Translations under genes and position numbers: made by a program | The notes under the pieces: generated by a model | Database searches by the model: none | Told to the model about the DNA's origin: nothing | What the model saw: the letters and a program-made list of their open reading frames with translations, nothing else | Source of the DNA: a virus | IMG/VR virus record: IMGVR_UViG_3300046804_001439 | Coordinates: 1 to 58,684 of that record | Reading direction: 5' to 3' (one strand) | Length of the DNA stretch: 58,684 bases | Shown here: positions 5,878-43,759 of the stretch, in pieces | Layout: every line of letters starts with the position of its first letter | Position numbering within the stretch: position 1 is the first letter of the stretch

Positions 5878-7212
5878 TTAGTTAAAAATTTCATTTACGG
5901 ATCCGAGGAAAGAACCGTCCCATTTTGATTTGGATTTTGTTATTACTTCCTGTGACCCGCCAAGGTCATAGGACTTCTTAATTGCAGTCTCTGATTCGAC
6001 TGCGTCAACACGCTTTTCAACGCCCTCAATCGTGTTCTTGATATCTTCTACAGCCTTTGAAAGGACTGAGTGTTGTTCTGCCAATTCTGAAATACGAGTA
6101 TCTACGCTCTTGCTGAATGTTTCAACAGTGTCTTTAATTGCTGAAACCTGAGCAGCATTTGCTTCAGATGCCTTGTTAAGAGTATCTGAAAAGAATCCCT
6201 TAAGATCACCGAGCATCTTTGCAAAATCAGGTTCATCAACCTCAACTTCTGATACGTCGGCTGCTTTTTCCAGAACTTCGGCAGAAGCGTCAACAGCTGG
6301 TGCTTCTTCGGCAGCAGGTGCTTCAACAGCAGGTGCTTCCTCAGCAGGAACAGCGGCTGGTGTTTCTTCTACAACAGCAGGAGCTTCTTCAACTGCTGCT
6401 AATGTTTCTGTGTTTTCTGACACTTCATTACCTCCTTCTGCGTTTGCCTGTTTTGCAATTTTGTTTGTATCAGGCAACGGTAATCTTGATTTCTTAAATG
6501 AATCAAGAATCTTATCTATTTCTTTTGCTTTCTTAACGTCATTGGATTCTACCCAACCAATTAACTGTGCTTCTTTTCCGCTAACTGGAGAAACGTATGT
6601 CGAATCTGTAGAAATAAAAACAGAGTCGCTATCTTCACAATAAAAAATATTTTCTGTTACTGTTTCTGCAGCAATTCCTTTAAACATTAACTGACCATTC
6701 ATTTTTTGAATTGACAATATGTTGCAAAGCTCGTTAGCTGGAGAATCTACTACAGATAACTCCATAAGAGCATATTCCTTAATGAAGCGAACTGGCTTAC
6801 CAGTTGACTTGTTAACTTCATTTTCTGAATCAATAATCTTTCCGCCAATTGAAAAACCTTGTAGTGTTCCATCCAAAATCTTTTCCCAAGTATCTTGAGC
6901 GCCTTTTGAAATGTATGCGTCTACATAAACACCATTATAAAATTCTTTTGTATTTGGATCATAATATGTTTCTGGTTTAAATGAAACCATTTTGCCAACT
7001 GCTGTTGATCCATGCATTTCACGAATGTTGCCACGGAAAGAATCAAATGCTTTGATTGAAGCTTCTTGAGTTACAACATCTCCAGTTTGATCCAAGTTGT
7101 CCAACGTTGCAAAACCAGAGACGATTCGCTTTTCACGATTTACTTTAGTAAATGGAACTGAAAGGCTGATATCGTCGCCATGAGATGACCACAAAGACTT
7201 ATGAATATTCAT
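5878..7212 (-). CDS. prohead protease fused to scaffold
   Basis: 444 aa. Residues about 15-170 are an HK97-type prohead protease (S78/U35-like): candidate catalytic His67 in REMHGS, Ser121 in LQGFSIGGK, and the conserved ELSVVDSPANE at about 151-161. Residues about 265-325 form an Ala/Pro/Glu-rich linker, and about 340-430 a coiled coil (FFSDTLNKASEANAAQVSAI, then HSVLSKAVEDIKNTIEGVEK) that should act as scaffold. Protease and scaffold in one polypeptide just before the capsid gene is a known arrangement. A TTGCCT-17-TATAAT promoter lies 5 nt before the ATG, so the message may be leaderless. Confidence 0.87.
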   Translation of the reverse strand: MNIHKSLWSSHGDDISLSVPFTKVNREKRIVSGFATLDNLDQTGDVVTQEASIKAFDSFRGNIREMHGSTAVGKMVSFKPETYYDPNTKEFYNGVYVDAYISKGAQDTWEKILDGTLQGFSIGGKIIDSENEVNKSTGKPVRFIKEYALMELSVVDSPANELCNILSIQKMNGQLMFKGIAAETVTENIFYCEDSDSVFISTDSTYVSPVSGKEAQLIGWVESNDVKKAKEIDKILDSFKKSRLPLPDTNKIAKQANAEGGNEVSENTETLAAVEEAPAVVEETPAAVPAEEAPAVEAPAAEEAPAVDASAEVLEKAADVSEVEVDEPDFAKMLGDLKGFFSDTLNKASEANAAQVSAIKDTVETFSKSVDTRISELAEQHSVLSKAVEDIKNTIEGVEKRVDAVESETAIKKSYDLGGSQEVITKSKSKWDGSFLGSVNEIFN

Positions 7213-7216
7213 ATGA

Positions 7217-7245
7217 TTAATTATAATTTTTTATATATAAAAAGG
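7217..7245 (-). promoter_or_regulatory. promoter for the protease-capsid genes, possibly leaderless
   Basis: Minus strand TTGCCT, 17 nt, TATAAT, then only TAATC before the ATG at 7212. No Shine-Dalgarno sequence is present, which fits the leaderless mRNAs common in Actinobacteria. Its placement puts a fresh start in front of the scaffold and capsid. Confidence 0.5.
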
Positions 7246-7266
7246 CAAATAACTAGTCGATCAGGA

Positions 7267-8847
7267 CTACTCGACTTGTCTTCCAGCACCCTGTTCGTTT
7301 CGGGCTTCTCCAGAAATATCTGGGGAATTATTTTGCCTTTCTTGATCCCTGGTTCTTGTATTTCCAGCCTGAGACCTAATCTCTGCCTGTTGCTGAGGCT
7401 TTAAAACTACAACCTCGTCTCCAGAATCAAGCGGAACCATGCCTCTACGAATTCTAATTTCATTAGGCGTAATTACCTGCATTCTTAAATAACGCTCATC
7501 AATCTTAGACTGAGTATCTTCATCGGTAAGAGCTAATTCGTTGAATTTAATTTCTAGAGCATCTGTCATTTCTGCAATTAACTTATTTAGTTTCTTTTCA
7601 AGAATGTCCTGTGCTGGACGACATACCTGCTCTTTAAATGTTTTATCGGCATCTCTTGCTGCAGCTAAATTAATTCCTTCTGGAGTTCCAATCTTATTAA
7701 TTGGAGTTCTGTGAGCCATAAGGATTTCATCACGATTCATCTTTCGATATGTATTAAATGACGAGTCTTGAGTTCCAGCCTCAATTGGCTCCATTTTAAA
7801 TTCAACTTTAGAATCTCCAGTATCTGCTGGAAGAGGAACATATAGAGATCTATGATTTCTTCCCTTTAATCCAACCTGGAAAAATTCAAGTAACTTGCGC
7901 TCTGACTCTGTTGAAAGTTTTGCGCCCTTAACTGTAATAATATAACGAGGGACTGCTTTATTCTCAAAATAATCAAGGTTATACTTGGCTGCAAATTCAT
8001 TTCCAGCCATAGCATTAGAAGCAGCTACAATATCTGGAATTCCATAATAGTTATTTGTTGGAGTATATTTCTTGAGATGAATAATTTCATTTGGACGATC
8101 AGTACCACCAGCAATTGGATTTACTGTTTCTTGATCTCCAAAATTGCGGAAGAATACAGCCTTTCCATAAAGCAATTGAATAAAGCCATCACGAAGACGA
8201 CGCACACGCATAGTCTTAGATGGTATATGTCCTAAATATCCAATTTTTCCAGAAGTTGTTCTTCCAACTTCAAGGTATCCGTTTCCTGTTGCCTCTACGT
8301 CCGTATAAACCTTAATTAATGTTTCTTTAAATGTTTCTTCTTCATTACAATCTTCAAGCCAGCCATGTAGATCTTGTCTCAATCTATTAAGCTTTCTTCT
8401 AGCTCTTTCTAATTGAGTGTCGCTGTCAATTCCATCCATAGCCTCAATTGTTTTTCTAGTTTCAATAAAATCATAACCTAATCCAACAATATTAGCTACC
8501 TTTGCATTAATTGCAGCATAGTTGTATGGTGAAATTTCATAAATAGTAGATAGGTAGTCTAAATTATATTTTGGCTCTATCAAATCAAACATCGAGTAGC
8601 CAGTAATGGCTTGCTGCAATAGATTCTGCTGGGTTTCAGCTCCATCTATTCCAGTAAATCTTTTTTGTAAATCTCTGCTTACTTTTCTTCTAAATGATGG
8701 ACTAAGTCCATTCATTTTTAAAACATCTTCGCCCTCTATTTTAAATGGATCAGTAGTTTTTTCTACAACTGGATTATTAAATCTAACCCAATCTGCAGCA
8801 TTAGAAATTTCAATTTCTTGACTATTTTCTTCGTCTATATGTTCCAT
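7267..8847 (-). CDS. portal protein
   Basis: 526 aa. Forms the 12-subunit ring at one head vertex for DNA entry and tail attachment. Seen features: PYNYAAINAKVANIVGLGYD near residue 80, a central GNGYLEVGRT strand, then DIVAASNAMAGNEFAAKYN and ENKAVPRYIITVKGAKLS, typical of PBSX/HK97-type portals of actinophages, and a helical C-terminal part ending in a Gln/Arg-rich tail. It lies before the protease and overlaps the small upstream gene by 1 nt. Confidence 0.88.
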   Translation of the reverse strand: MEHIDEENSQEIEISNAADWVRFNNPVVEKTTDPFKIEGEDVLKMNGLSPSFRRKVSRDLQKRFTGIDGAETQQNLLQQAITGYSMFDLIEPKYNLDYLSTIYEISPYNYAAINAKVANIVGLGYDFIETRKTIEAMDGIDSDTQLERARRKLNRLRQDLHGWLEDCNEEETFKETLIKVYTDVEATGNGYLEVGRTTSGKIGYLGHIPSKTMRVRRLRDGFIQLLYGKAVFFRNFGDQETVNPIAGGTDRPNEIIHLKKYTPTNNYYGIPDIVAASNAMAGNEFAAKYNLDYFENKAVPRYIITVKGAKLSTESERKLLEFFQVGLKGRNHRSLYVPLPADTGDSKVEFKMEPIEAGTQDSSFNTYRKMNRDEILMAHRTPINKIGTPEGINLAAARDADKTFKEQVCRPAQDILEKKLNKLIAEMTDALEIKFNELALTDEDTQSKIDERYLRMQVITPNEIRIRRGMVPLDSGDEVVVLKPQQQAEIRSQAGNTRTRDQERQNNSPDISGEARNEQGAGRQVE

Positions 8848-30050: not shown

Positions 30051-30534
30051 ACACTTTAAATCCAGGTCCGATTCCACAACAACCTCCAGTTCATTGGAGC
30101 CCAACATTTCAAGCAACAGGGTTAACATTTACTGGTACAAATAGCACATATCCAACATATGGTTCAATATATGCCAAATCAGGATATGTTGTGACATTCT
30201 GGATACAAATAGACTTAAGTACAGTAACAAACTTTGGAACGGGACAACTAAAAGTAGATCTTCCTTATTCTCCACATGCTGGAACAATGCATCACTTCAA
30301 TGGATGGATTTGGTATGACCCAATTAATCAGTCAAACCCAGATTTAGCAAATCATATTATTCTAAACGTAGATCATCTTCCAGGATCTCAGACATTAGAT
30401 TTACATTGGCTTGGTGGAGATACTCCAACACCAAAACCAGTTAGAGAGTTTCCAGTAACTGCAAAAAGTCCGTATACTCTAACAACGGCATCTAAGATAT
30501 ACATTAACGGAACATACCTGACAGACATTCTCTG

Positions 30535-30535
<1 letters not shown>
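30047..30535 (+). CDS. putative receptor-binding/tail protein
   Basis: 162 aa, no Cys; Pro-rich N terminus, then a beta-sandwich-like sequence (LTFTGTNSTYPTYGSIYAKS, GYVVTFWIQIDLSTVTNFGT, GQLKVDLPYSP) resembling C-terminal domains of phage tail proteins. It faces the tRNA cluster; its TGA touches the 3' end of tRNA-Thr. Confidence 0.55.
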
Positions 30536-30606
<71 letters not shown>

Positions 30607-30611
30607 ATTTG

Positions 30612-30684
30612 CTGGACCACCAGGGCTCGAACCTGGGACCTAGAAGTTAACAGCTTCCCGCTCTGCCGACTGAGCTATGGTCCA
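30612..30684 (-). tRNA. tRNA-Asn(GUU)
   Basis: 73 nt. Acceptor stem TGGACCA/TGGTCCA, anticodon loop CTGTTAA (anticodon GTT), T arm CCAGGTTCGAGCCCTGG. Five nt upstream of tRNA-Thr on the same strand. Confidence 0.93.
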
Positions 30685-34641: not shown

Positions 34642-34670
34642 ACAATTACTAAAACGAAAGGAAAACTAAA

Positions 34671-34820
34671 ATGAGCAAAATGAAAAATGCGATTGAAGAA
34701 ATTCTAAATTGCGAGATTTGTGAGGGCACAGGAATTTCTAGCGGTTGGGTATCACCTGACGGAGATTATGATTTTGAGTGGTGCGATTGTAATCCACACC
34801 ACCTAAGCGTGGCGGAATAA
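34671..34820 (+). CDS. small zinc protein with DnaJ-type CxxCxGxG motif
   Basis: 49 aa. CEICEGTG is one DnaJ-type zinc half-site; WCDCNPHH supplies the second cysteine pair. Probably a zinc-binding adaptor. Confidence 0.7.
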   Translation: MSKMKNAIEEILNCEICEGTGISSGWVSPDGDYDFEWCDCNPHHLSVAE

Positions 34821-35846: not shown

Positions 35847-35872
35847 GGCGGTTTCAAACGAAAGGAACTTCA

Positions 35873-36370
35873 ATGGGTTTAGATATGTATCTCTCTGCTC
35901 GTAAATATGTAAATAAAATAGATTGGTCTATTCTTGATAAACAAGAAGAAACTGATTATGCTGCTGCCACTTTTTCACAATGGAATGATATTGTAAATGC
36001 TGCTGGCTTAAATCATGTAGCAGATGAAAAAGATATTTATGGCGTAAGTGTTAGCGTAAATGCTGCTTATTGGCGCAAGGCTAATGCTATTCATAAATGG
36101 TTTGTCGATAATGTACAAGACGGGGAAGATAATTGCCAAGAGTTTTATGTATCTCATGCTCAATTAAAAGAGTTACTTACTACTTGCCGTCAAGCGTTAC
36201 TTCATAAAGACCCTAAAGAATTAATGCCCTCTTCAGGTTTCTTCTTTGGCTCATATGATATCGACGAATATTATTGGGGTCAGATAAAGGGAACTATCAA
36301 GCAATTGTCCAAATTGACCGAATTGCCTGATTTTGAAGAATTGTCCTTTTACTATCAGTCGTCGTGGTAA
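35873..36370 (+). CDS. conserved phage protein, MGLDMYL family
   Basis: 165 aa. Begins MGLDMYLSARKYV, a start shared by a large family of phage and prophage proteins with no known biochemical role. AAYWRKANAIHKWFVDNVQD and the C-terminal SYDIDEYYWGQIKGT are typical of the family. Own promoter module. Confidence 0.75.
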   Translation: MGLDMYLSARKYVNKIDWSILDKQEETDYAAATFSQWNDIVNAAGLNHVADEKDIYGVSVSVNAAYWRKANAIHKWFVDNVQDGEDNCQEFYVSHAQLKELLTTCRQALLHKDPKELMPSSGFFFGSYDIDEYYWGQIKGTIKQLSKLTELPDFEELSFYYQSSW

Positions 36371-36394: not shown

Positions 36395-36420
36395 ATCCGC
36401 ATAAACGAAAGGAAAAACTT

Positions 36421-36570
36421 ATGTGTGCCGTATGCTATGGAAATGCTCATGGGCTAACTGCCTATTCTATCAAGCCTAATAATCTATGTGTAATCCACTA
36501 TCAAGAATGGGCTCATGAAAAAACTTTTGACGAATTGGAAGGTACTCATGACTATTTTGAACTCTGCTAA
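36421..36570 (+). CDS. small Cys/His early protein
   Basis: 49 aa. MCAVCYGNAHGL then NNLCVIHYQEWAH: a C-x2-C...C-x2-H zinc knuckle. Overlaps the next gene by 23 nt. Confidence 0.65.
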   Translation: MCAVCYGNAHGLTAYSIKPNNLCVIHYQEWAHEKTFDELEGTHDYFELC

Positions 36571-37548: not shown

Positions 37549-37575
37549 TGCGCTATCAACAAACGAAAGGTAAAA

Positions 37576-37861: not shown

Positions 37862-37881
37862 GCAACAACGAAAGGAAAAAA

Positions 37882-38157
37882 ATGTTATCAACCGCTATTG
37901 AAATCTTAGATGTAACTAGAGATAGTATCTTTGACGACGACATAATGGGATTAGCAGGCGAACTACACACACGCCGAAACGAACTCTCAGATGAAATCTA
38001 TGCTAAGTATTTATTTATGTATTCATCGGCTATTGCTAGTAAAGTAGCAGACGGAGTAACTAAAGTATTACTAACAGAACAACAAATGTCCGACCTTATT
38101 GCTACAATAGAGGAAATGGACAACCTATCCGAAACTATCTTAGAGGAGAACGAATAA
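37882..38157 (+). CDS. hypothetical early protein
   Basis: 91 aa, acidic and helical: MLSTAIEILDVTRDSIFDDD, VLLTEQQMSDLIATIEEMDN. Directly abuts the next gene (1-nt gap). Function unknown. Confidence 0.68.
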   Translation: MLSTAIEILDVTRDSIFDDDIMGLAGELHTRRNELSDEIYAKYLFMYSSAIASKVADGVTKVLLTEQQMSDLIATIEEMDNLSETILEENE

Positions 38158-38480: not shown

Positions 38481-38503
38481 CAACCCCTAACGAAAGGAAA
38501 AAA

Positions 38504-38653
38504 ATGAACACACTAGAAATCGGACAGACAATCACAACCGCAAAAAGCGGTGTTGTCGGAGTAATCAAGGCAGTAGATAACCACCCAAGCGGTGTAAGTC
38601 GTGTATTGCTTGATGTTGATGGAACAGAACGCTGGACAAGCGTATCTAACTAA
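38504..38653 (+). CDS. small beta-barrel-like protein
   Basis: 49 aa. MNTLEIGQTITTAKSGVVGV then HPSGVSRVLLDVDGTERWTS: a short SH3-like or KOW-like beta pattern. Function unknown. Confidence 0.68.
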   Translation: MNTLEIGQTITTAKSGVVGVIKAVDNHPSGVSRVLLDVDGTERWTSVSN

Positions 38654-38719: not shown

Positions 38720-38753
38720 ATCGGCTCAACAACCAACTAACGAAAGGAAACAA

Positions 38754-40795: not shown

Positions 40796-40871
40796 GGTTC
40801 CGTAGAATAGTTTGGTTTAATTCGCTACCCTGTCACGGTAGAGATCACGGGTTCAAATCCCGTCGGAATCG
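40796..40871 (+). tRNA. tRNA-Asp(GUC)
   Basis: 76 nt. Acceptor GGTTCCG/CGGAATC, anticodon stem CTACC/GGTAG with loop CTGTCAC (anticodon GTC), T arm ACGGGTTCAAATCCCGT. CCA not encoded. Lies alone between early genes. Confidence 0.9.
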
Positions 40872-40929
40872 CAAGCTGAGATTTAAATATCAATATGTGA
40901 GACGCCCCCAGACTTAAAGGCCGATTTTT

Positions 40930-41002: not shown

Positions 41003-41659
41003 ATGACAGAAACCTGGACTAAAAATACATATGCATGCGACCCTGATGAATGTGATACTTTGATCGAAATTACAACATCAGATAAATTTGGATTCCCATC
41101 TGGGAGTGTGAATAATGTCACATGTCCATGTGGACGTAGACCCAATCTTTTGTCAGTGGAGCCTGCTACAATTGCACCAACAATCGAAAGGAATGAAATG
41201 GAAACAACAAGCACAATGCCTGATACGTATAATCCTAATCTTCTTGTTACATACAAGTCGATTAATGATAACTATGAGGCAACATATCCAAGTATAAAGG
41301 TTGTGGACCTAGAGGGAAAACTAGATTCCTTGGTCCGCCTTGAAAAGCAACTAATGAAGAGCAATGGTCAAATTGGTCAGATTATTGATAATCTAACTGT
41401 TGAGGGTTGGTATAATCCAAACACAGATAAAGAAGATATTCTGCGTGACCTTTGCGAAATTCTCGAACACGAGGCTAAGCAAGATATTACAATTACTGCA
41501 ACTGTGCAGGTAGAAGTTACCTATGCATGTCCATTAGACGAGGTCGAAGACTTCGATGCTAAATACTTCTTGCAAGATAACTTAACTGTAGATTCATGGC
41601 ACGGAGACGTTGTTATCGAATCATTCGATGTTGAAGACGCAGATGTGAGTTGGTCCTAA
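41003..41659 (+). CDS. early protein with N-terminal zinc module and second in-frame start
   Basis: 218 aa. Residues 1-65: YACDPDECDTLIEITTSDKF and VTCPCGRRPN form a C-x4-C/C-x-C zinc module. From Met66 (41198) an independent protein begins with its own promoter (41151), palindrome (41107) and ribosome-binding site CGAAAGGAATGAA, giving a 153-aa short form: LVRLEKQLMKSNGQIGQIID, then acidic C terminus. Either two products from one frame, or two genes fused in frame. Function unknown. Confidence 0.65.
   Translation: MTETWTKNTYACDPDECDTLIEITTSDKFGFPSGSVNNVTCPCGRRPNLLSVEPATIAPTIERNEMETTSTMPDTYNPNLLVTYKSINDNYEATYPSIKVVDLEGKLDSLVRLEKQLMKSNGQIGQIIDNLTVEGWYNPNTDKEDILRDLCEILEHEAKQDITITATVQVEVTYACPLDEVEDFDAKYFLQDNLTVDSWHGDVVIESFDVEDADVSWS
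41107..41122. promoter_or_regulatory. CRP/GlxR-like palindrome (perfect), inside a gene
   Basis: TGTGA-ATAATG-TCACA within coding sequence, 28 nt before the element at 41151. Confidence 0.58.
41151..41172 (+). promoter_or_regulatory. early promoter, TGTCRGTGG class, inside a gene
   Basis: TGTCAGTGG, 7 nt, TACAAT; leader CGAAAGGAA (41185-41193). Serves the internal start at 41198. Confidence 0.62.
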
Positions 41660-42639: not shown

Positions 42640-42644
42640 TATGC

Positions 42645-42650
42645 TATAAT
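42645..42650 (+). promoter_or_regulatory. extended -10 promoter of the anti-leader sRNA
   Basis: TGCTATAAT (extended -10 TGn form), the same TGC-TATAAT seen in several early promoters; a GTCA match lies near the expected element position but is weak. Confidence 0.5.
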
Positions 42651-42656
42651 AGGACT

Positions 42657-42810
42657 AGGTCTTTGTGGCCTGTTCGTTGAATAGTAAGGTGCGGCTATTA
42701 GGCTTCCGCCAAGTCGCTAAGTAATGCAGCTTTTACTTAAATTCCTTTCGTTTTGCTAGCAGCCTTACTTGTTTTAAATCCCCCAGTAGCTTTCCTGGGG
42801 GATTTTTCTT
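42657..42810 (+). ncRNA. trans-acting small RNA complementary to early-gene ribosome-binding sites
   Basis: About 154-nt transcript with a -10 promoter upstream and a strong terminator, and no open frame with a ribosome-binding site. 42742-42754 reads TTCCTTTCGTTTT, the exact complement of AAAACGAAAGGAA, the leader found before early starts (13 nt at 34651, 12 nt at 35857 and 36403, 11 nt at 37867, 38489 and 38739, 9-10 nt elsewhere). A hairpin TAAGTAA/TTACTTA (42718-42739) and a long-range helix AGTAAGG/CCTTACT (42683-42689 with 42763-42769) leave this seed single-stranded. Classic small-RNA architecture. The regulatory effect is inferred. Confidence 0.7.
42776..42810 (+). terminator. rho-independent terminator of the sRNA
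   Basis: Perfect 11-bp stem AAATCCCCCAG/CTGGGGGATTT, 8-nt loop, then a T-rich tail. Confidence 0.9.
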
Positions 42811-42900
42811 TGCCCTCAGCTGGTGAGGGTAACATATCTCTTTTACGGTTGTCAACTATTTTCCCTGAAAATTTCACAATATGAGATCGAGCTCGATCAA

Positions 42901-42957: not shown

Positions 42958-42982
42958 AGGAACCTAAGCGAAAGGAAACAAT

Positions 42983-43759
42983 ATGCCAAATTGGGTATAT
43001 AACACAGTAACAATTCAAGGTCCAAAAGAGGAAATTGATTATATCAAGGATAGATTGAATCGTCCATTTACTTTAGCACAAGAGACATATGGTATGGGTG
43101 ATATTAGTCTTTCAGGATTCCCCACCAAAATTAAGCAGGTTGAATATAACAATCCTGTATTTGCATTCCATAATATCTATTCCTATAAAGATGCTGGAAT
43201 TACTGATGAAGAGTATGCACGTCAACCTGACCGTGGCAATATAGACATGAAGAATGACCCTGATTGGTTCCGCAAGTCTGTTGAATTTGCTAAGACCCAA
43301 AAGGATTGGTATTCATGGAATAATTCCAACTGGGGAACTAAATGGGATGTTGCTGTTCGTGATGATGATGAATATCCTGAAACAGAACTAATTGAATATA
43401 AGTCAGAGGGTGACGATAATTGGCTAGTATATAAATATAATACTGCTTGGTCTCCTGCTGTAACTATCTTAGAAAAACTATCTCATCTTGTTCCGAACTC
43501 TCTTATTACATTAGAATACGAAGAAGAACAGGGTTGGGGTGGAGAGATAGAAATAGTTAGAGGTAAAGTAACAGAACTCTATGACTATGATTCTAAATGC
43601 TATGCATGTGATTCTCTAGATACATTAGATTATTGCGATAATGACTGTGGTCAATTTTGCTCTAATTGTAATCAAGGTTCTTGGCAGGATGAAGAGGCTA
43701 TGGCAAAATGTCAGACCCACATGGTATTATTGGAAACTACAGAAAAGGCGGAAGCATAA
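42983..43759 (+). CDS. Api92-like phage protein with C-terminal zinc cluster
   Basis: 258 aa. MPNWVYNTVTIQGP at the start, NWGTKWDVAVRD in the middle and NTAWSPAVTILEKLSHLVP are the signature of the Api92-like/DUF1281 family. The last 60 residues add CYACDSLDTLDYCDNDCGQF then CSNCNQ, a Cys-rich zinc cluster not usual for the family. Function of the family is unknown. First gene of a nine-gene coupled operon. Confidence 0.8.
   Translation: MPNWVYNTVTIQGPKEEIDYIKDRLNRPFTLAQETYGMGDISLSGFPTKIKQVEYNNPVFAFHNIYSYKDAGITDEEYARQPDRGNIDMKNDPDWFRKSVEFAKTQKDWYSWNNSNWGTKWDVAVRDDDEYPETELIEYKSEGDDNWLVYKYNTAWSPAVTILEKLSHLVPNSLITLEYEEEQGWGGEIEIVRGKVTELYDYDSKCYACDSLDTLDYCDNDCGQFCSNCNQGSWQDEEAMAKCQTHMVLLETTEKAEA

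Follow-up and report, generated by a model that had tools for sequence, protein, structure and literature searches.

A predicted small RNA in the early region of freshwater actinophages, with a covarying fold and a loop complementary to early-gene ribosome-binding sites

In an IMG/VR viral record of 58,684 bases, taken over its whole length and called the window here, a small transcription unit is predicted between the genes for a phrog_31860 and a DUF1281_C protein. A preliminary description, made from the sequence of the window, had recognized a promoter, about 154 nt without a translated frame and an excellent terminator at this locus, and all three were seen again when the sequence was checked, the ~154 nt between promoter and strong terminator being without a conserved frame (Table 1). 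This terminator is among the two best on the plus strand between 28 and 46.9 kb of the window, and the window RNA folds better than all of its shuffled versions (z = -3.6). Among 61 distinct homologues, a TATAAT-like box is found upstream in 48, and promoter and terminator signals, which as sequence signals are predictions only, are both visible in 41; a visible promoter is missing in about a fifth and a visible terminator in a quarter. Core lengths are spread across all three reading frames and the RNA is therefore not coding. Own promoter and terminator signals together with the absence of a conserved frame are typical of a trans-acting base-pairing sRNA. The sequence thus supports a discrete small RNA with a predicted single-stranded site that is complementary to many early ribosome-binding sites.

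Table 1. Features of the small RNA locus and of the complementary early leaders in the window
Feature	Position	Strand	Basis and remarks
Extended -10 promoter element TGCTATAAT	42642..42650	+	Directly 3' of upstream ORF stop; -35 consensus absent at the usual distance
5' hairpin of the RNA	42656..42672	+	Fold; outside conserved core
Predicted small RNA	42657..42810	+	Start placed from -10 box, end from terminator; covariance-model homologues
P1 5' strand GUAAGGU	42684..42690	+	Covariation; pairs with 42762-42768
P2 hairpin, GCGGCU (42691-42696) with AGUCGC (42712-42717)	42691..42717	+	99.2% of cells paired, double changes
Conserved junction UAAGUAAU (relatives: UAARUAAA)	42718..42725	+	Two alignments
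P3 hairpin, seed in loop	42726..42760	+	Alignment, covariation; stem covaries in Streptomyces phage homologues
Seed UUCCUUUCGUUUU	42742..42754	+	Invariant core CUUUCGUU at 42745-42752
P1 3' strand GCCUUAC	42762..42768	+	Covariation
Intrinsic terminator stem, then U-rich tail	42776..42805	+	Sequence; 46/61 distinct homologues
Target leader AAAACGAAAGGAA, ORF at 34671	34651..34663	+	13-nt match
Target leader, ORF at 35873	35856..35867	+	12-nt match
Target leader, ORF at 36421	36403..36414	+	12-nt match
Target leader, ORF starting ~37576	37561..37570	+	10-nt match
Target leader, ORF at 37882	37867..37877	+	11-nt match
Target leader, ORF at 38504	38489..38499	+	11-nt match
Target leader, ORF starting ~38754	38739..38749	+	11-nt match
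Target leader CGAAAGGAAU, ORF starting ~41198	41185..41194	+	10-nt match
Target leader, ORF at 42983	42969..42977	+	9-nt match

The site in question, TTCCTTTCGTTTT, which we call the seed, is the exact complement of AAAACGAAAGGAA, and the matches to nine early leaders (9-13 nt) all fall on this one site of the RNA. The match lengths listed beforehand were recomputed as 13, 12, 12, 11, 11, 11, 10, 10 and 9 and agreed except for the leader at 41185, which matches over 10 nt where 9 had been given. Their sum of 99, compared to a mean of 60 and a maximum of 83 for dinucleotide shuffles of the RNA, is reached by 0/1000 shuffles, which bears out the claimed complementarity to a shared early leader; within the window, higher scores than that of the seed RNA are reached only by the opposite strands of the leaders. 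Copies of AAAACGAAAGGAA with up to 3 mismatches number 52 in the window compared to 31.7 expected, a count that 0/100 shuffles reach. A TATAAT-like box lies directly upstream of each of the nine leaders, which are therefore short and promoter-proximal. Late-gene leaders (n=30), mostly with GGAG-type sites, carry no seed match, their longest match being 4.7 nt on average and 8 nt at most.

The seed had also been described as single-stranded, and in the window its mean unpaired probability is indeed 0.83, compared to 0.42 over the whole RNA; in some relatives it folds into a small stem, with unpaired probabilities of 0.19-0.3 in a few. When the complete RNA is cofolded with four leaders, the predicted gain is ~7 to 16 kcal/mol. 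An accessible and conserved seed complementary to several targets is a further trait of trans-acting base-pairing sRNAs. Within the seed match, UUCCUUUC is complementary to Shine-Dalgarno sites of the GAAAGGAA type in general, and only the AACG extension is specific. Since AACGAAAG on the minus strand looks like a leader, the complement might be a mere shared DNA element, either a minus-strand promoter-leader cassette or a protein-binding site, with no RNA regulator involved. We consider this very improbable, as no start codon lies in range after the minus-strand AACGAAAG in the genomes read in detail, a start-like triplet is nearby in 9/61 homologues only, and the surrounding sequence covaries as RNA, which strongly disfavours a shared DNA element. 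A minus-strand leader for an ORF was rejected on the same start codon evidence. Kissing of a leader hairpin AUAUC-AACGAAAG-GAUAU with the loop was dropped as a general mechanism because this hairpin is largely confined to the leader of one gene.

To place the RNA among its relatives, freshwater phage loci were gathered by a search with the downstream protein (80 loci) and by a pattern search (40 more). A seed-bearing homologous RNA is present in 69 of the 80 neighbour loci, nearly all at the same location, and a covariance model finds a single strong copy per genome. The core common to 41 aligned sequences consists of a P1 closing structure, a P2 hairpin, a UAARUAAAGC segment joining to P3, and P3 with its loop; the P2 pairs occur as GCGGCU/AGUCGC, GCCCCU/AGGGGU, GCAUCU/AGAUGC and other variants. 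Across these 41 sequences 93.8% of cells are paired, compared to 79% when shuffled and at most 49% when slid, and 95 cells show double changes compared to 38 when shuffled. CUUUCGUU in the P3 loop, to which the commonest leader, AACGAAAG, is complementary, is identical in 41/41 aligned copies, and the P3 stem and the rest of the loop vary in sequence and length around these invariant 8 nt. The RNA family itself is strongly supported by these data. No match was obtained in an exact DNA search of viral contigs with the 26-nt seed region of the window, nor against GenBank phages by megablast of window 34-44 kb or tblastn of the downstream protein; a pattern scan of genome contigs was too unspecific, and its actinobacterial hits that were checked had no covariance-model match.

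The core is also found without the seed. It carries a minimal P3 of the GCGC-UUAG-GCGC or GCGC-ACA-GCGC type in three loci (L053, L302, L306) and a P3 loop CUGGGGGUGUU in two others (L034, L308), and in L012 the core is kept and the seed missing, the leaders still being of the seed type. The covariance model furthermore matches Streptomyces phage Yaboi (E = 1.4e-4) in both terminal repeats, and BLAST detected a homologue in 86 GenBank Streptomyces phage records, nearly all without annotation under the match; the records looked up that name a family give Stanwilliamsviridae. The window phage is related to these phages, with up to 67% identity in the ribonucleotide reductase and ~50% in a DUF932 protein. 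Most of the homologues in Streptomyces phages show a promoter of the TTGACA type, P1 is merged into the terminator stem, and the P3 loop is an invariant A(U/A)GGUCGG without the freshwater seed. All 22 proposed pairs form in 14/14 sequences (100% paired), with 36 double-change cells compared to 11.7 when shuffled. Pairing of the Streptomyces loop GGUCGG or of the L034 loop with the phages' own leaders was also considered, and no enrichment was found. In L034 (6826-6924) and L308 (~7201-7287) the seedless core has no terminator and is soon followed by an ORF, MELNEYITKVKQDFPNGF..., so that it may act in cis there; as noted by eye, pairing of its loop GGGGGUG with the 16S anti-Shine-Dalgarno sequence would be possible with one wobble.

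Conservation of the core without the seed means that the RNA is more than an antisense RNA and that leader pairing is not its sole role; the core has a broader distribution than the seed and must serve a further, seed-independent function. The main job of the RNA might even lie in this core, through binding of a host or phage protein, polymerase or ribosome, with leader pairing minor or incidental and the P3 loop resembling an anti-Shine-Dalgarno sequence for a different reason. Such an explanation, which we judge rather unlikely, would fit a core that is kept with minimal, CUGGGGGUGUU and A(U/A)GGUCGG loops, the lack of matches between the alternative loops tested and the leaders of their own phages, and the generic match of the UUCCUUUC loop to GAAAGGAA sites; it sits less well with the 8 nt that are invariant amid a varying P3 stem and loop wherever the longer loop is present, with a seed match that takes in the non-Shine-Dalgarno AACG, and with leaders that track both the presence of the seed and its flanking base.

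Independent divergence of leaders and seed in related phages had been named beforehand as an outcome that would speak against the RNA regulator. We found instead that the loop core never diverges where it is present and that the complementary leader is about twice as frequent in seed-bearing as in seedless genomes. Among unique GAAAGG leaders, AACGAAAGG makes up 228/419 (54%) with the seed compared to 16/62 (26%) without it (odds ratio 3.4, descent being ignored), and the per-genome medians of its share are 0.60 in seed-bearing and 0.225 in seedless genomes. The leader of the MARGKAI gene is AACGAAAGG in 45 of 55 seed genomes compared to 1 of 10 seedless ones, the single case being L012. Over 60 RNA types, the leader base before AACG agrees with the base flanking the seed at a rate of 0.435 compared to 0.346 when permuted, and 0/5000 permutations are as high, the permutation and count tests both ignoring descent. 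A tree built from the downstream protein implies ~7 changes of the seed, at least four of these on well-supported branches. It yields ~4 independent pairs, and on average ~2.3 of them show leader and seed going together and at most 0.1 the opposite; this is consistent with an association, but the pairs are too few for significance.

AACGAAAGG or CGAAAGG leaders are present also in phages whose RNA has no seed, and in Streptomyces phages CGAAAGG is found close to the 5' end of early leaders, many of which have their ribosome-binding site separately, further downstream; the leaders therefore cannot exist solely for the RNA. Matches to the window loop likewise exceed chance in seedless genomes (8 compared to 1.8 expected in G010). 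Probably the leader element is the older one and the freshwater RNA later acquired a loop reading it. The initial interpretation, in which one RNA shuts down at least nine early messages at once as a possible early-to-late switch, is weakened by these seed-independent leaders and holds as far as a discrete RNA with a single-stranded site against many early ribosome-binding sites is concerned, which the covariation of the fold and the constancy of the loop support. In the first 11 kb of the Streptomyces phages L309, L310 and L311, several early leaders start with ACAUCGAAAGGGAG...CUCCC directly after TAGACT-like boxes; this hairpin element of the leader is distinct from the ribosome-binding site.

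The leaders, short, numerous and exactly complemented by the RNA, and belonging to an element that exists independently of the seed, could also serve as a sponge or sensor titrating an RNA that acts elsewhere, for example on a host message, and that is freed when early transcription ends. Since it is the ribosome-binding site that would be paired, the leader messages should be affected anyway, and we regard a sponge as improbable. In our opinion there is a reasonable probability that the RNA is an early-region antisense sRNA which occludes the ribosome-binding sites of about nine early genes and spares the late genes. As an antisense regulator, the locus would make a terminated early-region small RNA whose conserved three-helix core (P1, P2, P3) is confined to one group of large actinobacterial phages; in the freshwater branch, the P3 loop of this core would present CUUUCGUU (13 nt in the window phage). 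This loop would nucleate in trans on AACGAAAGG in short 5' leaders and extend to 9-13 bp, the targets being ~nine promoter-proximal early genes. Because the leader element includes the Shine-Dalgarno site, pairing would keep the ribosome (30S) off, the translation of many early messages would be lowered together, and late genes with GGAG-type sites would escape.

Judged from the sequences, control of early messages by the seed loop is likely, and regulation by the RNA is a prediction: we infer that the RNA is made and in what amounts, that it pairs with leaders in vivo, that its effect is repressive rather than activating, and when it acts, including any early-to-late role. The RNA sits within the early region, and feedback damping of early genes would therefore be as likely as a late switch. 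More tentatively, P3 might be an exchangeable targeting module, its antisense loop silencing an early set in freshwater phages through occlusion of ribosome sites, as an RNA counterpart of RegA, and other lineages having other loops and targets on the same core, an idea that we find somewhat doubtful.

In phage T4, the RegA protein competes with the ribosome at the initiation regions of ~30 messages, and the RegB nuclease likewise acts on early messages (PMC3014915). The likeness to RegA is that a single phage factor addresses many early messages where their translation starts; here the complementarity, and with it the predicted action, concerns the initiation regions of many early, not late, messages. 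RegA and RegB are proteins, whereas the factor predicted here is a base-pairing RNA, so that the comparison is one of function only and implies no homology. The c4 antisense RNA of phages P1 and P7 (RF01695) has loops complementary to a phage ribosome-binding site and blocks translation (PMC12197685, PMC2864571). It resembles the present RNA in this phage-encoded loop and differs in targeting the ant message, compared to nine or more messages in trans for one loop here, and in its hosts. RNAIII of Staphylococcus has a C-rich hairpin loop complementary to the Shine-Dalgarno sites of several messages. A loop-presented complement to several such sites is common to both, but RNAIII is bacterial, of another family and fold, and not involved in phage early control. 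Other phage-encoded regulatory RNAs, namely OOP, sar, 24B_1, VpdS and PreS, act on phage or host messages and are mostly single-target antisense or host-directed RNAs, studied chiefly in Gram-negative hosts and in several cases Hfq-dependent (PMC12197685), in contrast to the many phage targets proposed here.

Rfam (4227 models), run on the window, four freshwater relatives and Yaboi, gave nothing above gathering at the locus, the best score being NsiR1 with 26.1 bits compared to a gathering score of 39, driven by the terminator. In these scans c4 (RF01695) had no match at E up to 5 and none at gathering, and our literature search returned nothing relevant on this RNA or on RNA of Stanwilliamsviridae. 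A new phage RNA family with an anti-leader loop in one branch is well supported; the type of regulator, antisense at ribosome-binding sites, is already known, and the RNA family is new. It is a candidate case of a phage RNA, and not a protein, controlling many early messages via a shared ribosome-binding leader, in the setting of abundant and poorly cultivated freshwater actinophages, and since seedless homologues occur in cultured Streptomyces phages, the core is open to direct laboratory tests. Post-transcriptional control in actinophages is little known. Hfq is generally not known from actinobacteria, and how such an RNA would find its targets there is of general interest.

Some further features were observed around the locus. 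Early promoters between 34.3 and 43 kb of the window carry TGTCRGTGG ~10-11 nt upstream of GCTATAAT, replacing the ordinary -35 box, and the promoter of the small RNA is without the GTGG part. Genes for tRNA-Thr, tRNA-Asn and tRNA-Asp lie at 30534-30684 and 40796-40872 of the window. The covariance model also matches L027 (5658-5765) and L028 (7321-7428) a second time, weakly (23 bits), at a long hairpin, GGGGAGGGTCGATTG-CTTTCGTT-ATTGACCTTCCCC, in which the same CTTTCGTT is presented by another stem-loop and which immediately precedes a further promoter-like box. Finally, a second conserved element follows the terminator in the window (~42811-42880) and in its relatives, where it reads GCCCNCAAAAGANTGAGGGTANCATATCTCTTTTACG..GTCAA..TTCCCTGAAAATT, and a similar TTTACGATAGG..GTCAAAATTTCCGG element is repeated near the genome ends of Streptomyces phages.
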